Part shown: positions 2,411 to 28,240 of the stretch, piece after piece
Layout: every line of letters starts with the position of its first letter
Position numbering within the stretch: position 1 is the stretch's first letter
DNA from: an uncultured Eubacteriales bacterium
Lineage (GTDB): Bacteria; Bacillota; Clostridia; Lachnospirales; Lachnospiraceae
Assembly (NCBI GenBank): GCA_949294665.1
Contig: CASFID010000045.1
Location: 1 to 32,465 of the forward strand
Direction of reading: 5' to 3'
DNA length: 32,465 nucleotides
The notes under the pieces: generated by a model
The model's database searches: none
Seen by the model: only the letters and a program-made list of their open reading frames with translations
Told to the model about the DNA's origin: nothing
Position numbers and translations under genes: made by a program

Positions 2411-3199
2411 ATGATAAAACTGATCGCAAGCGACCTGGACGGGACGCTTTTACAAAACGGAGCGCAGGAGCTTACGCCCCGCGCCATAGAACTGATACAT
2501 GCGCTTATCCAGAAAGGAGTCCACTTTGTAGCTGCGAGCGGACGCCAATACGACAACGAGCGCCGGCTCTTCGCAAAGATCCGAGATGAGATATCATACA
2601 TTGCGGAGAACGGTTCTCTGTGCATCTGCCAGGGCAAGGTAATCTCCCGGGGCGTCATCCCGGATGATCTGGCTTATCATATCATGAATGATGTCAAAAG
2701 GACTCCCGGATATGAGGTCCTTGTCTCACGTGAGGACGCCTGTTTCATCGAGGACGCCAATCCTGAATTCGTAGATTACATCGTCAACGTGATGAAAAAT
2801 ACGACCAGGATCGTGGACGATGTAACAAAGCTCAAAGGTCCGTTTCTCAAGATCGCAACCGCAAACATGGTATCTCACGACGTCAGCGATTACCTGAGAC
2901 GGCTTCAGGAGAAATATTCTCCCACGCTTAAAGTCGTCACCTCGGGCAACATCTGGATCGATTTTATCGTGCCCGGATATAATAAGGGCACTGCCCTTAT
3001 GAAACTGATGGACCTGTTCCATGTAAAACCAGAAGAATGTATGGCGTTCGGCGATCAATATAATGATGTGGAGATGCTGGAACTCGTCGGCCAGGGATAC
3101 GCTATGTCAAATGCTGCGCCGGGCATTGCAGGCCACGCGAAATATGTGACAGACTCTGTAGAAGAAGTGCTGGAAGATGTACTGGCCGGACTGAACTGA
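2411..3199 (+). CDS. Cof-type HAD-superfamily phosphatase
   Basis: A 262-aa cytoplasmic hydrolase of the Cof/YidA-like HAD subfamily (type IIB cap). Motif I is DLDGT (Asp8 nucleophile, Asp10 acid/base), the cap lies at about residues 80-190, the conserved Lys is in the GYNKGTAL segment, and motif IV is GDQYNDVEML. Such enzymes dephosphorylate sugar phosphates, nucleotides or flavin intermediates; the substrate cannot be told from sequence. The frame is open upstream to 2087, but that part is antisense to glmM and is not coding. The ATG at 2411 follows a G-rich ribosome site (TTGGGGGAA) and begins exactly at the family N-terminus MIKLIASDLDGTL. It has its own promoter and a strong terminator. 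Confidence 0.93.
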   Translation: MIKLIASDLDGTLLQNGAQELTPRAIELIHALIQKGVHFVAASGRQYDNERRLFAKIRDEISYIAENGSLCICQGKVISRGVIPDDLAYHIMNDVKRTPGYEVLVSREDACFIEDANPEFVDYIVNVMKNTTRIVDDVTKLKGPFLKIATANMVSHDVSDYLRRLQEKYSPTLKVVTSGNIWIDFIVPGYNKGTALMKLMDLFHVKPEECMAFGDQYNDVEMLELVGQGYAMSNAAPGIAGHAKYVTDSVEEVLEDVLAGLN

Positions 3200-17697: not shown

Positions 17698-18321
17698 TTA
17701 TCGATCTAATCCAATGCCAAATTTAATTTTTGCACTGTCCATAATAATATCCGCCACTTTGCTAAAATCGGCCATGGAACTGTCTATCAGAAGATGCCGG
17801 AATTTATTACTGGTAAATCTATGCTTTGTACAATGTTTATAAAACACCTCTCTTGCCTTGTCTACTCCGGTAAGGTATAAATATGCTTCACCGGGATCTT
17901 CAATCTGCAGTTCTTCTTTACAGTTAATAAGCCTTTTTTCAATAGGCGCATAAATGAACACATTCAGCATATTTTCATCCGGAATACCGTATTCTCGAAG
18001 TACATAATCCGAACATCTGCCGACGATCACACAGTTTCTGCTGGCTGCAAGGTCTACCATGATACTCTTTTCCATTTCAAACAGAGCGCGCTTCATTTTC
18101 GTATTTCCAAGTCCGAGAGGATGCATCATCTTATCAAACGGTGAAATAGGCTGCTGGTCAAACGCGGACAGTTTTTCAATATCTCCCCGCATCTCTTTCA
18201 CTGCAAGTTCAATAATATCTCTGTCATAATACTCATAACCCAGATGATCCGCAACTTCTCTGGCTATTTTCCTTCCAAGACTTCCAAACTGCCTTGTTAC
18301 GGTGATCACATTATATGCCAT
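17698..18321 (-). CDS. cytidylate kinase-like protein, last gene of the urease operon
   Basis: A 207-aa protein of the cytidylate-kinase-like family (PF13189 type). The N-terminal ITVTRQFGSLGRKIAREVADHLGYEYYDRDII resembles the family start, where a Gly/Ser/Arg-rich loop replaces the classical GxxGxGKS P-loop. VIVGRCSDYVL and the basic lid-like segment KHRFTSNKFRH follow. True CMP kinases are essential; these paralogs usually have unknown substrates. Start: GGAGGG lies 8 bases before the ATG at 18321 (the ATG two codons earlier is too close, and the TTG at 18342 has no site). It overlaps ureD by 11 bases, implying coupled translation. Its link to urea use is unexplained. Confidence 0.88.
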   Translation of the reverse strand: MAYNVITVTRQFGSLGRKIAREVADHLGYEYYDRDIIELAVKEMRGDIEKLSAFDQQPISPFDKMMHPLGLGNTKMKRALFEMEKSIMVDLAASRNCVIVGRCSDYVLREYGIPDENMLNVFIYAPIEKRLINCKEELQIEDPGEAYLYLTGVDKAREVFYKHCTKHRFTSNKFRHLLIDSSMADFSKVADIIMDSAKIKFGIGLDR

Positions 18322-19054
18322 ATTCATTTCCCTCCATTGCAATTTTTTTCAAAAATCTCTCTGTCTCATCACTGCTGTCCCCAAGGACACGGACGACGGT
18401 TCCCTTTTTTGCACAGCTGTACGCAGCGGTCAGTGAGCCGCTTTCTGCCGGTATATCAACAGTCCTCCCATAAATATAGGCCATTCCCTGATGGGTATTT
18501 CCTTCAAAGAATCCGATTCTTCTCGGATTGTTCTCTTTCGGTACCAGTCTTGTATTATCTGCAAAAACAGGGATCTCTTCTTCAAAGACCACAGTGCGGG
18601 AATGATATTTTCGGAACTCAAATACTTCTCCCATCCCTTTTCTTCCGCATGCCAGAATATCCGTCATAGCAAACCGTGCGCCCTTTTCCAGTCTGACTTC
18701 ACCTGTATTTGTGAAGTCACTGTCCCTGAACGGGATCACCGGACACGGGAGATAGCAGAGAGAGGCGTCCTTTTCCACTGTGATCTTCAGTTTATGACGT
18801 GCCTGCCCTTTTTCCATACGGAACAGCTTTGTATAGGACTGTCCCGTGATGATCACATGGCTTCCTGTCCTGATCTTAAATTCCAGTTCATGGCTGTCCC
18901 CTTCCAGGATTCCGGCTGACGCCTGCATGATCATCAGTTCCAGTACATTGTGACTGACAAAAGGTTTTGTAATCTTGAACGGTGCGGTAAAATAGCTGTC
19001 TTTTACCACAGTCCTCCCATTTTCACAAACTGTCTCTATATACAGATATCCCAT
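18311..19054 (-). CDS. ureD: urease accessory protein UreD
   Basis: UreD (UreH) binds the urease apoenzyme and, with UreF and UreG, delivers nickel through an internal channel. The 247-aa protein has the family features: SASAGILEGD-like segment (QASAGILEGD, about 45-54), a beta-rich core, YTKLFRME, and PCPVIPFRDSDF. The ATG at 19054 overlaps the ureG stop in the arrangement TAATG, a typical coupled start. The order with ureD last, after ureG, is common in Firmicutes. Confidence 0.93.
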   Translation of the reverse strand: MGYLYIETVCENGRTVVKDSYFTAPFKITKPFVSHNVLELMIMQASAGILEGDSHELEFKIRTGSHVIITGQSYTKLFRMEKGQARHKLKITVEKDASLCYLPCPVIPFRDSDFTNTGEVRLEKGARFAMTDILACGRKGMGEVFEFRKYHSRTVVFEEEIPVFADNTRLVPKENNPRRIGFFEGNTHQGMAYIYGRTVDIPAESGSLTAAYSCAKKGTVVRVLGDSSDETERFLKKIAMEGNEYGI

Positions 19055-20814: not shown

Positions 20815-22527
20815 TTAAAACAGATAATATTTCTGTGTCAGAGGCAGCCGTTCTGCAGCTTCGCAGGTAATGCTTTCTCCGTCTACGCTGACATGATAAG
20901 TATCCGGATCCACCTGAATATCCCCGGTCCTGTCATTAAATTTCATATCTTTTTTCCCGATATTTCTGCAGTTTTCAACCGGGATTACTATTCTGGAAAG
21001 TCCAAGCCTCTCTTTGATTCCGCCGTCTGCCGCGGCCTTTGATACAAACGTTGCGCAGGTACGTTTGCAGGCAAGTCCGTGCGCTCCGAACATATTTGTA
21101 TAAACAACCGGCTGGGGCGTAGGGATAGATGCATTGGCATCTCCCATCCTGGACGCAATGATAAATCCTCCCTTAATGATCATCTCCGGCTTTACGCCGA
21201 ACATAGACGGTTTCCATAATACCAGATCCGCAAGCTTTCCGGTTTCCACGGATCCTACGTATCTGGAAATCCCGTGTGTGACAGCCGGATTGATCGTATA
21301 TTTCGCTACATATCTCTTCACTCTGTAATTATCATTTCTGCTGTTGTCTTCCGGAAGCATCCCTCTCTGGTCCTTCATTTTGGAAGCAGTCTGCCAGGTC
21401 CTTGTGATGACCTCTCCGACTCTTCCCATTGCCTGAGAATCACTGCTCATCATGGAAAAAATACCCATATCATGCAGCACGTCTTCCGCCGCGATCGTCT
21501 CCGGCCGGATCCTGGAATCGGCAAAAGCCACATCTTCCTTTACTCTGCTGTCCAGATGATGGCAAACCATCAGCATATCCAGATGCTCATCTATGGTATT
21601 GACTGTAAACGGCATGGTCGGATTAGTGGACGAGGGCAGAATATTGGGGAAAGCGGCTGCCTTGATGATATCCGGGGCATGCCCGCCTCCTGCACCTTCC
21701 GTATGATAGGTATGGATGGTACGTCCGTCAATAGCATTCAGGGTATCTTCCACAAATCCCGCTTCATTCAGCGTATCCGTATGGATGGATACCTGTACGT
21801 CATAGTTATCGGCAGCCCGGAGCGAGCGGTCGATGACCGCCGGGGTGGCTCCCCAGTCTTCATGGATCTTAAGTCCGCAGGCGCCTGCTTCAATCTGCTC
21901 CGCAAGGGCATCATAGCTGGAACTGTTTCCCTTTCCAAGAAATCCAAGATTTACCGGGTAATCCTCCGCCGCTTCGATCATCTTTTCCAGATGAAATCGT
22001 CCCGGGGTACATGTGGTCGCATTCGTACCGTCCGCCGGACCCGTTCCGCCCCCGATCATGGTGGTGATCCCGGAATAAAGCGCTGTCTCGATCTGAGTCG
22101 GGCTGATAAAATGGATATGGGTATCAATCCCTCCTGCCGTCAGGATCAACCCCTCACCTGCGATCACTTCCGTACCGGAACCTACGACCAGTTCCGGGGA
22201 TACGCCGTCCATAATATCCGGGTTCCCGGCTTTTCCGACGCCGCATATCTTTCCGTTCCTGATCCCCACATCTGCCTTTACGATTCCTGTATAGTCAATG
22301 ATGACCGCATTGGTGATCACAGTATCCGGACAGTCCTTATCCGGGATATTGCAGGACTGGCCCATACCGTCACGCAGTGATTTTCCGCCTCCGAATTTTG
22401 CTTCGTCGCCCTTCACCGTAAGATCCGTTTCCACCTCAATAATCAGAGAAGTGTCCGCCAGACGGATCCTGTCCTTCTCGGTGGCACCATACATGTCTGC
22501 ATATTGTTTTCTACTCATCTTAAACAT
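20815..22527 (-). CDS. ureC: urease alpha (catalytic) subunit
   Basis: Nickel amidohydrolase that hydrolyses urea to ammonia and carbamate. The 570-aa product keeps every active-site residue: His137 and His139 (DTHIH), carbamylated Lys220 (GLKIHEDWG), His249 (SIHTD), His275 ([13 protein letters not shown]), the flap Cys322-His323, and Asp363 (SSDSQAMGR). Start: the ATG at 22527 follows AAGGGGGTGG and overlaps the ureAB stop by 8 bases; the longer frame to 22608 would run far into ureAB and add residues absent from the family. An intact active site, accessory set and importer argue for a working urease. Confidence 0.97.
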
Positions 22528-26805: not shown

Positions 26806-28038
26806 TTATTCCAGAGGCTGGATGTTTGCTTCTACTGCCCAGTCATATGATTCAAGATATGGATCCGGCACTACAGGCTCGGTTTCTTTCACCGTAGTAA
26901 TCTGTCCGTCAGCTCCGATCACACCGATTCTTACCGGCTTGATCAGATGGTGGTTTTCACCGTCTATCTCCACTGTGCCTTCCGGAGCGTCAAAAGTGAT
27001 TCCTCCTGCTTCCACTGCGGCGATTACATCTTCCGGCTCAAAGCTTCCCGCTTTTTCCACAGCTGCTTTCCACAGATATACCGCATCATATGCCGCTTCC
27101 GCAGGATCAGACGTTACTCTGTCGCTTCCATATGCATCCTGATATGCTTTTACAAATTCTTTATTTTCCGGCGTGTCTGTAGTCATGTAATAGTTCCATG
27201 AAACCATATGGCCTTTCAGAATATTCGCACCGATTGTCTTTACTTCTTCCTCCGCGATGGAAAAGGACATTGTCATATAGTCCTCAGATGTATAATTTTT
27301 TTCATTCATCTGTTTAAAGAAGGAAAGATTTCCTGTTCCGTTCAGCGTATTGATAATCACATCCGGCTGGGCTGCTTCAATCTTGGAAATAATGGAACTG
27401 AAATCTGTCTGATCCATCTGTGCATATTCCTCACCGACTACCTCAACCCCCTTTGCCTTACATTGTGCGTTGATGATCATATTGGCTGTTCTCGGAAATA
27501 CATAGTCAGAGCCAAGAAGGAAAAACTTTTTATACCCCTGCTCGATCAGGTAATCGATTGCCGGAACAATCTGCTGATTCGGTGCTGCTCCTGTATAAAT
27601 GATATTCGGTGAAGATTCCATGCCTTCATACTGAACCGGATACCAGAGAAGATTACCGTAATCTTCAAACACAGATTTAACCGCCTTTCGGGAAGCGGAT
27701 GTCCAACATCCAAATACTGTTTTGACTTTATCCTGATCTACCAGCTTTTCAGCCTTTGTTGCAAAAGTAGATGGTTCGGACGCTCCGTCTTCCTCGATAT
27801 ATTCGATCTGTTTTCCAAGGATACCACCGGCTTCATTAATCTGATCAATGGCGAGTACTTCCGCATCTTTCACTGCTCCTTCACTGATTGCCATGGAGCC
27901 TGTTGCAGAATAAAGGATACCTACCTTAACGGTGTCCTCACCGGAGTCCCCGCTGCCGGATTCGGAATTGCCACATCCTGCCATTGACAATGTCAAAGCA
28001 GCACACAAAAATAATGATATGATTGTCTTCTTTTTCAT
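26806..28038 (-). CDS. urtA: urea ABC transporter substrate-binding lipoprotein UrtA
   Basis: A 410-aa lipoprotein with signal peptide and lipobox MAGC (Cys22), a Ser/Gly linker, then the periplasmic-binding type I fold starting VKVGILYSATGSMAISE. The region CWTSASRKAVKSVFEDYGNLLWYPVQYEGMESSPNI and the phrase GAAPNQQIVPAIDYL are characteristic of urea/short-amide binding proteins such as UrtA and FmdD. Start: the frame is open to 28134, but that part lies in the hairpin leader; GGGAGTTG lies 5 bases before the ATG at 28038, which begins a normal signal peptide. First gene of the urt-ure operon. Confidence 0.95.
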   Translation of the reverse strand: MKKKTIISLFLCAALTLSMAGCGNSESGSGDSGEDTVKVGILYSATGSMAISEGAVKDAEVLAIDQINEAGGILGKQIEYIEEDGASEPSTFATKAEKLVDQDKVKTVFGCWTSASRKAVKSVFEDYGNLLWYPVQYEGMESSPNIIYTGAAPNQQIVPAIDYLIEQGYKKFFLLGSDYVFPRTANMIINAQCKAKGVEVVGEEYAQMDQTDFSSIISKIEAAQPDVIINTLNGTGNLSFFKQMNEKNYTSEDYMTMSFSIAEEEVKTIGANILKGHMVSWNYYMTTDTPENKEFVKAYQDAYGSDRVTSDPAEAAYDAVYLWKAAVEKAGSFEPEDVIAAVEAGGITFDAPEGTVEIDGENHHLIKPVRIGVIGADGQITTVKETEPVVPDPYLESYDWAVEANIQPLE

Positions 28039-28061: not shown

Positions 28062-28106
28062 TATTAAAAGAGTCATCTGCCGAAAAACCTTCTCGGCAAA
28101 TGACTC
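28062..28106 (-). terminator. second leader hairpin (T2) of the urt-ure operon
   Basis: On the minus strand GAGTCATTTGCCGA pairs with TCGGCAGATGACTC (14 bp, one G-T pair) around a 9-nt loop, followed by TTTTAATA. It lies 24 bases before the urtA start. The T-run is weaker than that of T1. Its 5' arm lies within the second copy of the 13-nt leader repeat. Confidence 0.75.
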
Positions 28107-28201
28107 CTTTGTCTGGTATTCCCACAATGTGCACTCTGCGGATTGAGATATAAAAAAAAGGAGTCTGCTATGAATAGATTTCACAACGGACTCCTTTGTC
28201 T
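28102..28201 (-). repeat. 13-nt direct repeat in the operon leader
   Basis: GACTCCTTTGTCT occurs exactly at 28102-28114 and 28189-28201 (minus-strand RNA: AGACAAAGGAGUC), 87 nt apart. Each copy supplies the 5' arm of one leader hairpin. The T1 3' arm (GACUCCUUU) can pair with either copy. Confidence 0.9.
28152..28197 (-). terminator. first leader hairpin (T1), strong intrinsic terminator
   Basis: On the minus strand AAAGGAGTC (28197-28189) pairs perfectly with GACTCCTTT (28165-28157). Inner pairs (TGTGAA with TTCATA) extend the stem almost continuously, and the T-run has 8-9 residues. It begins less than 10 nt after the predicted transcription start and about 115 nt before urtA. By sequence it should stop most transcripts unless it is opened. 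Confidence 0.85.
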
Positions 28202-28211
28202 TATGCGCCTT

Positions 28212-28240
28212 AGTATAACAATCGTTTTTTCGTTTGTCAA
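28212..28240 (-). promoter_or_regulatory. promoter of the urt-ure operon
   Basis: Minus strand TTGACA (28240-28235), a 17-bp spacer, TATACT (28217-28212). The -35 is perfect and the -10 has 5 of 6 consensus bases. Expected start of RNA is at about 28205, giving a leader of about 167 nt. A promoter this strong followed at once by a terminator suggests control by antitermination. Confidence 0.88.

Follow-up and report, generated by a model that had tools for sequence, protein, structure and literature searches.

Candidate Single-Hexaloop ANTAR Attenuators in the Leader of a Lachnospiraceae Urea Operon

Introduction

In the genome of an uncultured bacterium assigned to the Lachnospiraceae, two terminator-like hairpins sharing the same short repeat are placed between the promoter of a urea operon and its first gene, urtA. 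This raises the question of which signal allows RNA polymerase to pass them, and what the repeat is used for. The DNA analysed is contig CASFID010000045.1 of assembly GCA_949294665.1, a stretch of 32,465 nucleotides referred to here as the window. A preliminary description of the window, based on its letters alone, proposed either a riboswitch or a protein-dependent antitermination switch. The analysis presented here lends strong support to a protein of the ANTAR type, by the hexaloop, the regulon and a glnA-linked ANTAR gene, and none to a riboswitch. Most likely, the repeat is a candidate ANTAR recognition motif and not mainly an alternative-pairing switch, and it is very probable on the combined sequence evidence that the leader consists of two attenuators in series, at which a NitR-like ANTAR protein antiterminates via the hexaloop when nitrogen is short.

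ANTAR control of glutamine synthetase genes is already known. In Clostridium saccharobutylicum, NitR, an ANTAR protein, was reported to induce the GS/GOGAT genes on nitrogen limitation (PMC6316151), and a similar role was suggested for an ANTAR protein in C. thermocellum (PMC4676874). The variant described here is the use of one hexaloop per terminator without a P1 partner. In the recognition hairpin of ANTAR antiterminators, induction was reported to fall when A1 or G4 is changed, both closing pairs are sequence-specific, and the second hairpin, P2, overlaps the terminator; EutV was described to need two hexaloops in vivo, separated by a linker of 5-12 nt (PMC3369931). The minimal ANTAR site was redefined as one hexaloop, with P1 still needed for antitermination in vivo (PMC8934654).

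The Leader of the Urea Operon

The gene urtA (26806-28038) is the first gene of the urea operon, and its product scores above the cut-off of NCBIfam TIGR03407 (urea ABC transporter binding protein). All features of the leader described below are located, like urtA, on the minus strand, where a leader of about 167 nt connects the promoter with the urtA ATG at 28038-28036. The near-consensus promoter noted before was confirmed as a sigma-70-type promoter (28212-28240) consisting of TTGACA at 28240-28235, a 17-nt spacer and TATACT at 28217-28212, with a promoter score of 11/12. From the usual promoter spacing, transcription would start near 28205.

The two terminator-like hairpins before urtA were likewise confirmed, since both fold far beyond shuffled sequences. 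Terminator T1 (28152-28197), whose 5' arm starts inside the first hexaloop, ends with a U8 tract at 28159-28152, and terminator T2 (28066-28110) ends with a short U4 tract at 28069-28066. The region of T1 (28205-28152) folds at -21.9 kcal/mol (z -7.1) and that of T2 (28116-28060) at -29.5 kcal/mol (z -8.1), none of 200 shuffles being as good in either case; for the whole leader, a z of -7.5 was obtained. T2 looks like the weaker terminator because of its poor U tract, in which UUUU is followed by AAUAAU. A small hairpin whose loop contains GUGCAC is present between the two units at 28122-28141; it folds no better than shuffles (z -1.0; 31/200 as good). Similar hairpins occur in a few relatives, GUGCACA being common to the loci L004 and L007 and GUGUACA being found in L002 and L003, while the stem letters differ.

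The exact 13-nt repeat described as common to both 5' arms, AGACAAAGGAGTC, was found at 28201-28189 and 28114-28102. No other exact copy exists in the assembly of 3.59 Mb, and with one mismatch it occurs at six places. Each copy holds the mini-hairpin GAC-AAAGGA-GUC, which has a stem of 3 bp with AC/GU closing pairs and a hexaloop with A at position 1 and G at position 4 (A1/G4). Hexaloop 1 (28189-28200, loop at 28197-28192) is located at the predicted 5' end of the RNA. Hexaloop 2 (28102-28113, loop at 28110-28105) is the best match of the assembly to the covariance model introduced below (E 0.0016), for which it was also a training unit. On their own, the mini-hairpins are weak (-1.7 and -2.2 kcal/mol, respectively), as would be expected if they have to be held by a protein.

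In both units, the hexaloop together with its 3' stem strand forms the 5' arm of the terminator, and therefore the hairpin and the terminator are mutually exclusive. Both window units thus have an A1/G4 loop, AC/GU closing pairs in a stem that reaches the minimum of 3 bp, and an overlap with an intrinsic terminator. These features are shared with the EutV targets described in PMC3369931 and PMC8934654, and the AC/GU closing pairs are those needed in eutP (PMC3369931). The earlier statement that the pattern of ANTAR hexaloops is missing does not hold for the single units, both of which are A1/G4, but it stands for the paired pattern, as no dual hexaloop is present.

Conservation of the Unit before urtA

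A DNA search with the leader in 299 genomes of the family gave matches only in the assembly itself, at two places, so relatives were compared by protein and motif searches. From 27 UrtA loci fetched, four (L026-L029) were dropped because only 27-51 N-terminal residues matched, and 23 were kept; the leader limits of L014-L016 and L021 were set by eye. A hexaloop-terminator unit was found before urtA by the detector in 17 of the 23 relatives, with one unit in some leaders and two in others. By eye, units missed by the detector were seen in L018 (GGU/GCC stem) and L020 (GGC/GUC and GGAC/GUCC). Neither the detector nor inspection revealed a unit at urtA in L011, for which the leader comprises 155 nt only, L013 and L019; the genomes of all three contain an ANTAR protein. 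The leader of L022 shows units where the detector found none, and this locus is doubtful: at about 2990-3010, a two-unit leader is joined directly to codon 114 of urtA in the MAG contig, which may reflect an assembly error or a broken gene.

The assembly contains a second urtA (C25, about 95313-98456; L002), which is 90% identical and has its own two-unit leader. As this leader differs very little from that of L003, the locus may represent a second operon or contamination.

A Probable Regulon of Nitrogen Genes

A covariance model of the hexaloop and its flank was built on 38 of 48 units, ten being dropped as short, long or odd. In its own assembly, where 150 of 516 first-look candidates were scored, the model gave eight matches up to E 10. 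Six of them are training units, namely both window units, the unit before glnA, both units of the second urtA and an amt unit. The two matches outside the training set are the one before the ssnA-like aminohydrolase gene (E 0.079, 247 nt to the start) and the one before the second amt (151 nt to the start), the E value of which, 6.1, is at chance level when taken alone. Two units were missing from the output of this search: that of the glutamine synthetase III (GSIII) gene at C52, although it had been used for training, and the first amt unit, at C16. The GSIII gene was exposed by a pattern search of the assembly, which also led to the first amt unit; by count, this search was no better than its control (20 versus 21, several rows being one site) and did not list glnA, and its matches were judged by gene context. 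Altogether, units precede urtA, glnA, the GSIII gene, two amt genes and the ssnA-like gene; Pfam or NCBIfam supports the names GSIII, Amt (twice) and SsnA.

In 120 genomes of the family, searched with 49 candidates per genome and stricter filters than those for the own assembly, 70 matches were obtained at E up to 0.05, distributed over 51 genomes. Those given as new comprise 29 loci in other genera, two of which (L162 and L174) are training units, and here the first long frame behind each unit was named by Pfam. Glutamine or ammonium genes follow at 25 of these 29 loci: type I glutamine synthetase (15), GSIII (3), ammonium transporter (2), glutamate-synthase-like class-II amidotransferase (2), PurF-like amidotransferase (2) and CTP synthase (1). 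The remaining four are off this theme, with one diaminopimelate epimerase, one circularly permuted ATP-grasp protein, one solute-binding protein and one response regulator.

The genes for PurF-like proteins and CTP synthase, preceded by the units at L160, L185 and L182, code for glutamine-using enzymes, so the regulon may follow glutamine supply.

The ANTAR Protein Encoded behind glnA

One ANTAR protein was detected in the assembly. It consists of 184 aa (L031:7095-7649), and its gene is located directly behind glnA, coding for type I glutamine synthetase, as in the NitR-type arrangement. Among 299 genomes of the family, each from another genus, 265 contain an ANTAR protein, mostly one each. 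The ANTAR gene adjoins glnA in 55 of 58 loci fetched, which were taken from the better-scoring ones. In the three exceptions, L109 is cut by the contig end, and L076 and L113 code for other ANTAR proteins. The protein of L113 is encoded in an apparent eut locus, and both its phospho-acceptor Asp and the acidic pair are kept.

In 55 proteins compared, no Asp is present at the column of EutV Asp54 (one has Glu), and the columns of the acidic pair are without Asp or Glu, the columns equivalent to EutV being assigned by hand from the alignment; Pfam recognised the ANTAR domain only, with no match to a receiver. Judging from these alignments, the glnA-linked regulator has lost the phospho-acceptor, and its receiver is degenerate. 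At the RNA-binding end, the columns of the EutV contacts Lys149, Glu160 and Met172, as given in PMC8934654, are kept in 55/55 proteins. The column of Tyr164, the residue stacking on G4, is occupied by His (46) or Phe (9); at the column of Arg142, which is variable, Arg is present in 11.

The degenerate receiver of the 55 proteins has conserved residues of its own, for example F-P-K, C-G-Y-R/K and an invariant D, which hint that a different input is sensed, for instance a ligand or glutamine synthetase. A possible model is the NasS-NasT system, in which an RNA-binding ANTAR protein is released from a partner, although there nitrate and nitrite are sensed through NasS (PMC3795266).

For four of the 22 urtA-bearing genomes (L004, L006, L007 and L023), which are MAGs and perhaps incomplete, no ANTAR match was found, while their leaders carry units. 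Together with the His or Phe in the G4-stacking column, this would fit an RNA-binding factor other than an ANTAR protein as the reader of the hexaloop. We consider such a factor very unlikely, since the loop and its closing pairs match the published ANTAR target, the ANTAR protein is as widespread and as firmly placed behind glnA as described above, and the unit itself is present in 29 of 56 glnA leaders.

The origin of the regulator gene in this assembly has to be viewed with caution, as the assembly is 5% contaminated and may be chimeric. UrtA of the window is 99% identical to that of L024, and GlnA of the ANTAR contig is 94% identical to that of the L003 genome versus 87% to that of L024, so the window and the ANTAR contig may represent two species. 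In each of the L003 and L024 genomes, a separate glnA-ANTAR operon is present, and its leader contains a hexaloop.

Loop and Stem Statistics

The sample of 56 glnA leaders, each from a genome of another genus, was used for an analysis of the loop letters. A1/G4 hexaloops overlapping a terminator were found in 24 leaders versus 1.2 in shuffles. The next classes were G1/G4 with 6 (0.8 in shuffles) and G1/U4 with 4 (0.6 in shuffles), the latter being the highest of the 14 letter pairs other than A1/G4 and G1/G4, which ranged from 0 to 4. With a relaxed detector, the unit was seen in the 29 leaders mentioned versus 0-4 in 30 shuffles, and no R1/G4 unit was seen in the other 27. Earlier versions of the detector gave 13/56, which was too narrow, and 18/56 versus a shuffled mean of 0.9.

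For the stem, units were anchored on the closing C-G pair, a purine-purine-N-G loop and a terminator, leaving stem pairs 2 and 3 unused. From 80 leaders, 55 anchored units were obtained, and 48 of them form stem pairs 2 and 3; in 5000 shuffles of the arms, the mean was 31.3 and the maximum 39, kinship not being removed from these figures. Bare background anchors form both pairs in 145 of 956 cases. Stem pair 3 is GC in 25, AU in 20, GU in 3, UG in 1 and UA in 1 of 54 units. Before the closing pair was fixed, the register of the test had been ambiguous, and 28/81 had been obtained versus a shuffled mean of 12.6 and a maximum of 21. Both versions omitted six urtA leaders that are near-duplicates (L003, L008, L010, L015, L016 and L024), and window unit 2 is absent from the 55 anchored units, probably owing to its short U tract. 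RNAalifold draws the hexaloop unaided, with both-sided changes at 3 of 4 pairs, in units that were pre-chosen for a stem. In the alignment of 38 units, conservation is confined to the hexaloop and the terminator end.

These data bear on the view that T1 and T2 are constitutive tandem terminators which damp expression, and that the hexaloop is a by-product of the terminator sequence. T1 and T2 are indeed strong and the mini-hairpin stems weak, and close to half of the glnA leaders are without a detected unit. However, no other letter pair is as prominent as A1/G4, covariation is seen in the 5' stem strand although the terminator core does not need it, and most units examined in other genera precede glutamine or ammonium genes. 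A purely constitutive role is very unlikely.

Alternative Pairing within the Leader

It was suggested earlier that the 3' arm of T1 pairs with the second copy of the repeat, thereby opening T1 and the base of T2, with a ligand or protein choosing between the structures. In the window, this pairing stands: the cross duplex and the arms of T1 reach -12.0 kcal/mol each. As a conserved feature it does not, as was seen in eight relatives with arms chosen by eye. The cross pairing is weak in L004, L005, L006 and L007 (-3.4 to -4.8 versus -8.2 to -12.1 kcal/mol for the T1 arms) and reduced in L002 (-9.7 versus -14.5 kcal/mol). It is comparable to the T1 arms in L025 (-10.7 versus -11.4 kcal/mol) and L022 (-9.4 versus -11.1 kcal/mol) and equal to them in L024, which is near-identical to the window. 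Of the two kinds of conservation proposed earlier as a check among related urtA leaders, that of the repeat unit was observed and that of the alternative pairing was not. Furthermore, leaders with a single observed unit, such as L009, L012, L014 and L023, are incapable of cross pairing, and T1 had its chance already before copy 2 is transcribed. The exact cross-match in the window is explained more simply by both copies being one protein-binding motif, and a pairing switch as the main mechanism is very improbable.

The length of the leader and its terminators would suit an attenuator controlled by a metabolite riboswitch, but this is the least credible of the readings, since no Rfam family was found in the leader at gathering score (up to E 10, the best match was a microRNA precursor model with E 0.01 and 23.8 bits versus a gathering score of 80), the predicted RNA start about 5 nt before hexaloop 1 leaves no room for an aptamer ahead of T1, and nothing besides the hexaloop and the terminator end is conserved among the aligned units.

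One Hexaloop per Terminator

The recognition of the hexaloop by an ANTAR protein, which remains the preferred reading, differs from the eut system in the number of hexaloops. Among the 48 stem-forming units, 29 have a promoter scoring at least 10/12, and the stems of these 29 begin without exception 7-17 nt downstream of the -10 box. The RNA would thus start only a few bases ahead of the stem, and no P1 fits there; the same holds for unit 1 of the window. The other 19 units, the second units among them, have no such promoter within reach. No excess of A1/G4 hexaloops was found near the 48 units, neither upstream (3/48, UA being commonest with 10) nor downstream (9/48, with UU 10 and UG 9), and a second hexaloop P1 located 5-12 nt before P2 was not found in these leaders. 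The small hairpin located 8 nt before window unit 2 does not have a hexaloop, and the distance of 75 nt between unit 1 and unit 2 is beyond the linkers working for EutV. The protein could in principle be recruited to unit 2 by the first unit or by the small GUGCAC hairpin.

The eut leader of L113 seems to have the normal arrangement of two hexaloops. The detector found one G1/G4 hexaloop that is associated with a terminator and located 55 nt downstream of the -10 box, and a second G1/G4 hexaloop about 15 nt before the first was seen by eye. L113 is a weak control for the dual motif, because the stricter dual scan missed the pair and neither loop has A1.

Proposed Mechanism and Relation to Known Systems

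By default, each terminator could fold and stop transcription. A NitR-like ANTAR protein with a degenerate receiver and an ANTAR domain, encoded behind glnA, would bind GAC-ANNGNN-GUC under nitrogen shortage; binding of the protein to the hexaloop is suggested by the likeness to the published targets, and induction by nitrogen limitation would follow the published work on NitR. As the 5' arm of the terminator is made up of the loop and the 3' stem strand, the terminator would be excluded while the mini-hairpin is bound, and RNA polymerase would continue into the urea operon, starting with urtA. With two units in series, the two readthrough probabilities would be multiplied. The regulator may be controlled without phosphorylation, perhaps through glutamine synthetase or a small ligand.

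For the bacterial family of the window as a whole, which is the Lachnospiraceae judging from its named relatives, we lean towards the view that a phosphorylation-free, glutamine-synthetase-linked ANTAR protein runs a nitrogen regulon through single 5'-terminal hexaloops, that the 5'-terminal position replaces the recruiting P1, and that the two-hexaloop rule is not general.

This system would share with NitR the link of an ANTAR protein to glutamine synthetase genes, antitermination and nitrogen limitation (PMC6316151), but here the units also precede genes for urea uptake, ammonium transporters and GSIII, and the target is one hexaloop per terminator. The eut targets are dual-hexaloop, and EutV has an intact phospho-acceptor Asp, which is lost here (PMC3369931, PMC8934654). 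Urea transporters were named among the matches of a search for ANTAR RNA elements (PMC3369931), likewise placing nitrogen genes including urea transport under ANTAR control; these elements came from a dual-hairpin model, which is expected to miss single units. Among the matches listed from the open-access literature, there was no report of single-hexaloop transcription attenuators, of this regulon in Lachnospiraceae or of ANTAR-controlled urt operons in Lachnospiraceae.

The analysis points to a likely regulator of urea use in a gut lineage and to its likely target, and it yields an RNA signature with which a nitrogen regulon can be searched for throughout the family. The leaders resemble attenuators that naturally work with one hexaloop, which opens a direct way to test the need for P1 and the switching of a receiver without a phosphate site. 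This bears on the question raised in PMC8934654 about the role of single hexaloops in ANTAR function.

Other Features of the Window

Matches to the Rfam family 5_ureB_sRNA were found at 22083-22377 on the plus strand, antisense to the gene for the large subunit of urease. Conservation of the coding sequence probably accounts for these matches, and they do not prove an antisense RNA. A Cytidylate_kin2 gene (Pfam; 17698-18342, minus strand) is located where the urea operon ends, and directly upstream of urtA in L009, L010, L013, L017 and L023, frames with an end similar to Cytidylate_kin2 were seen by eye.
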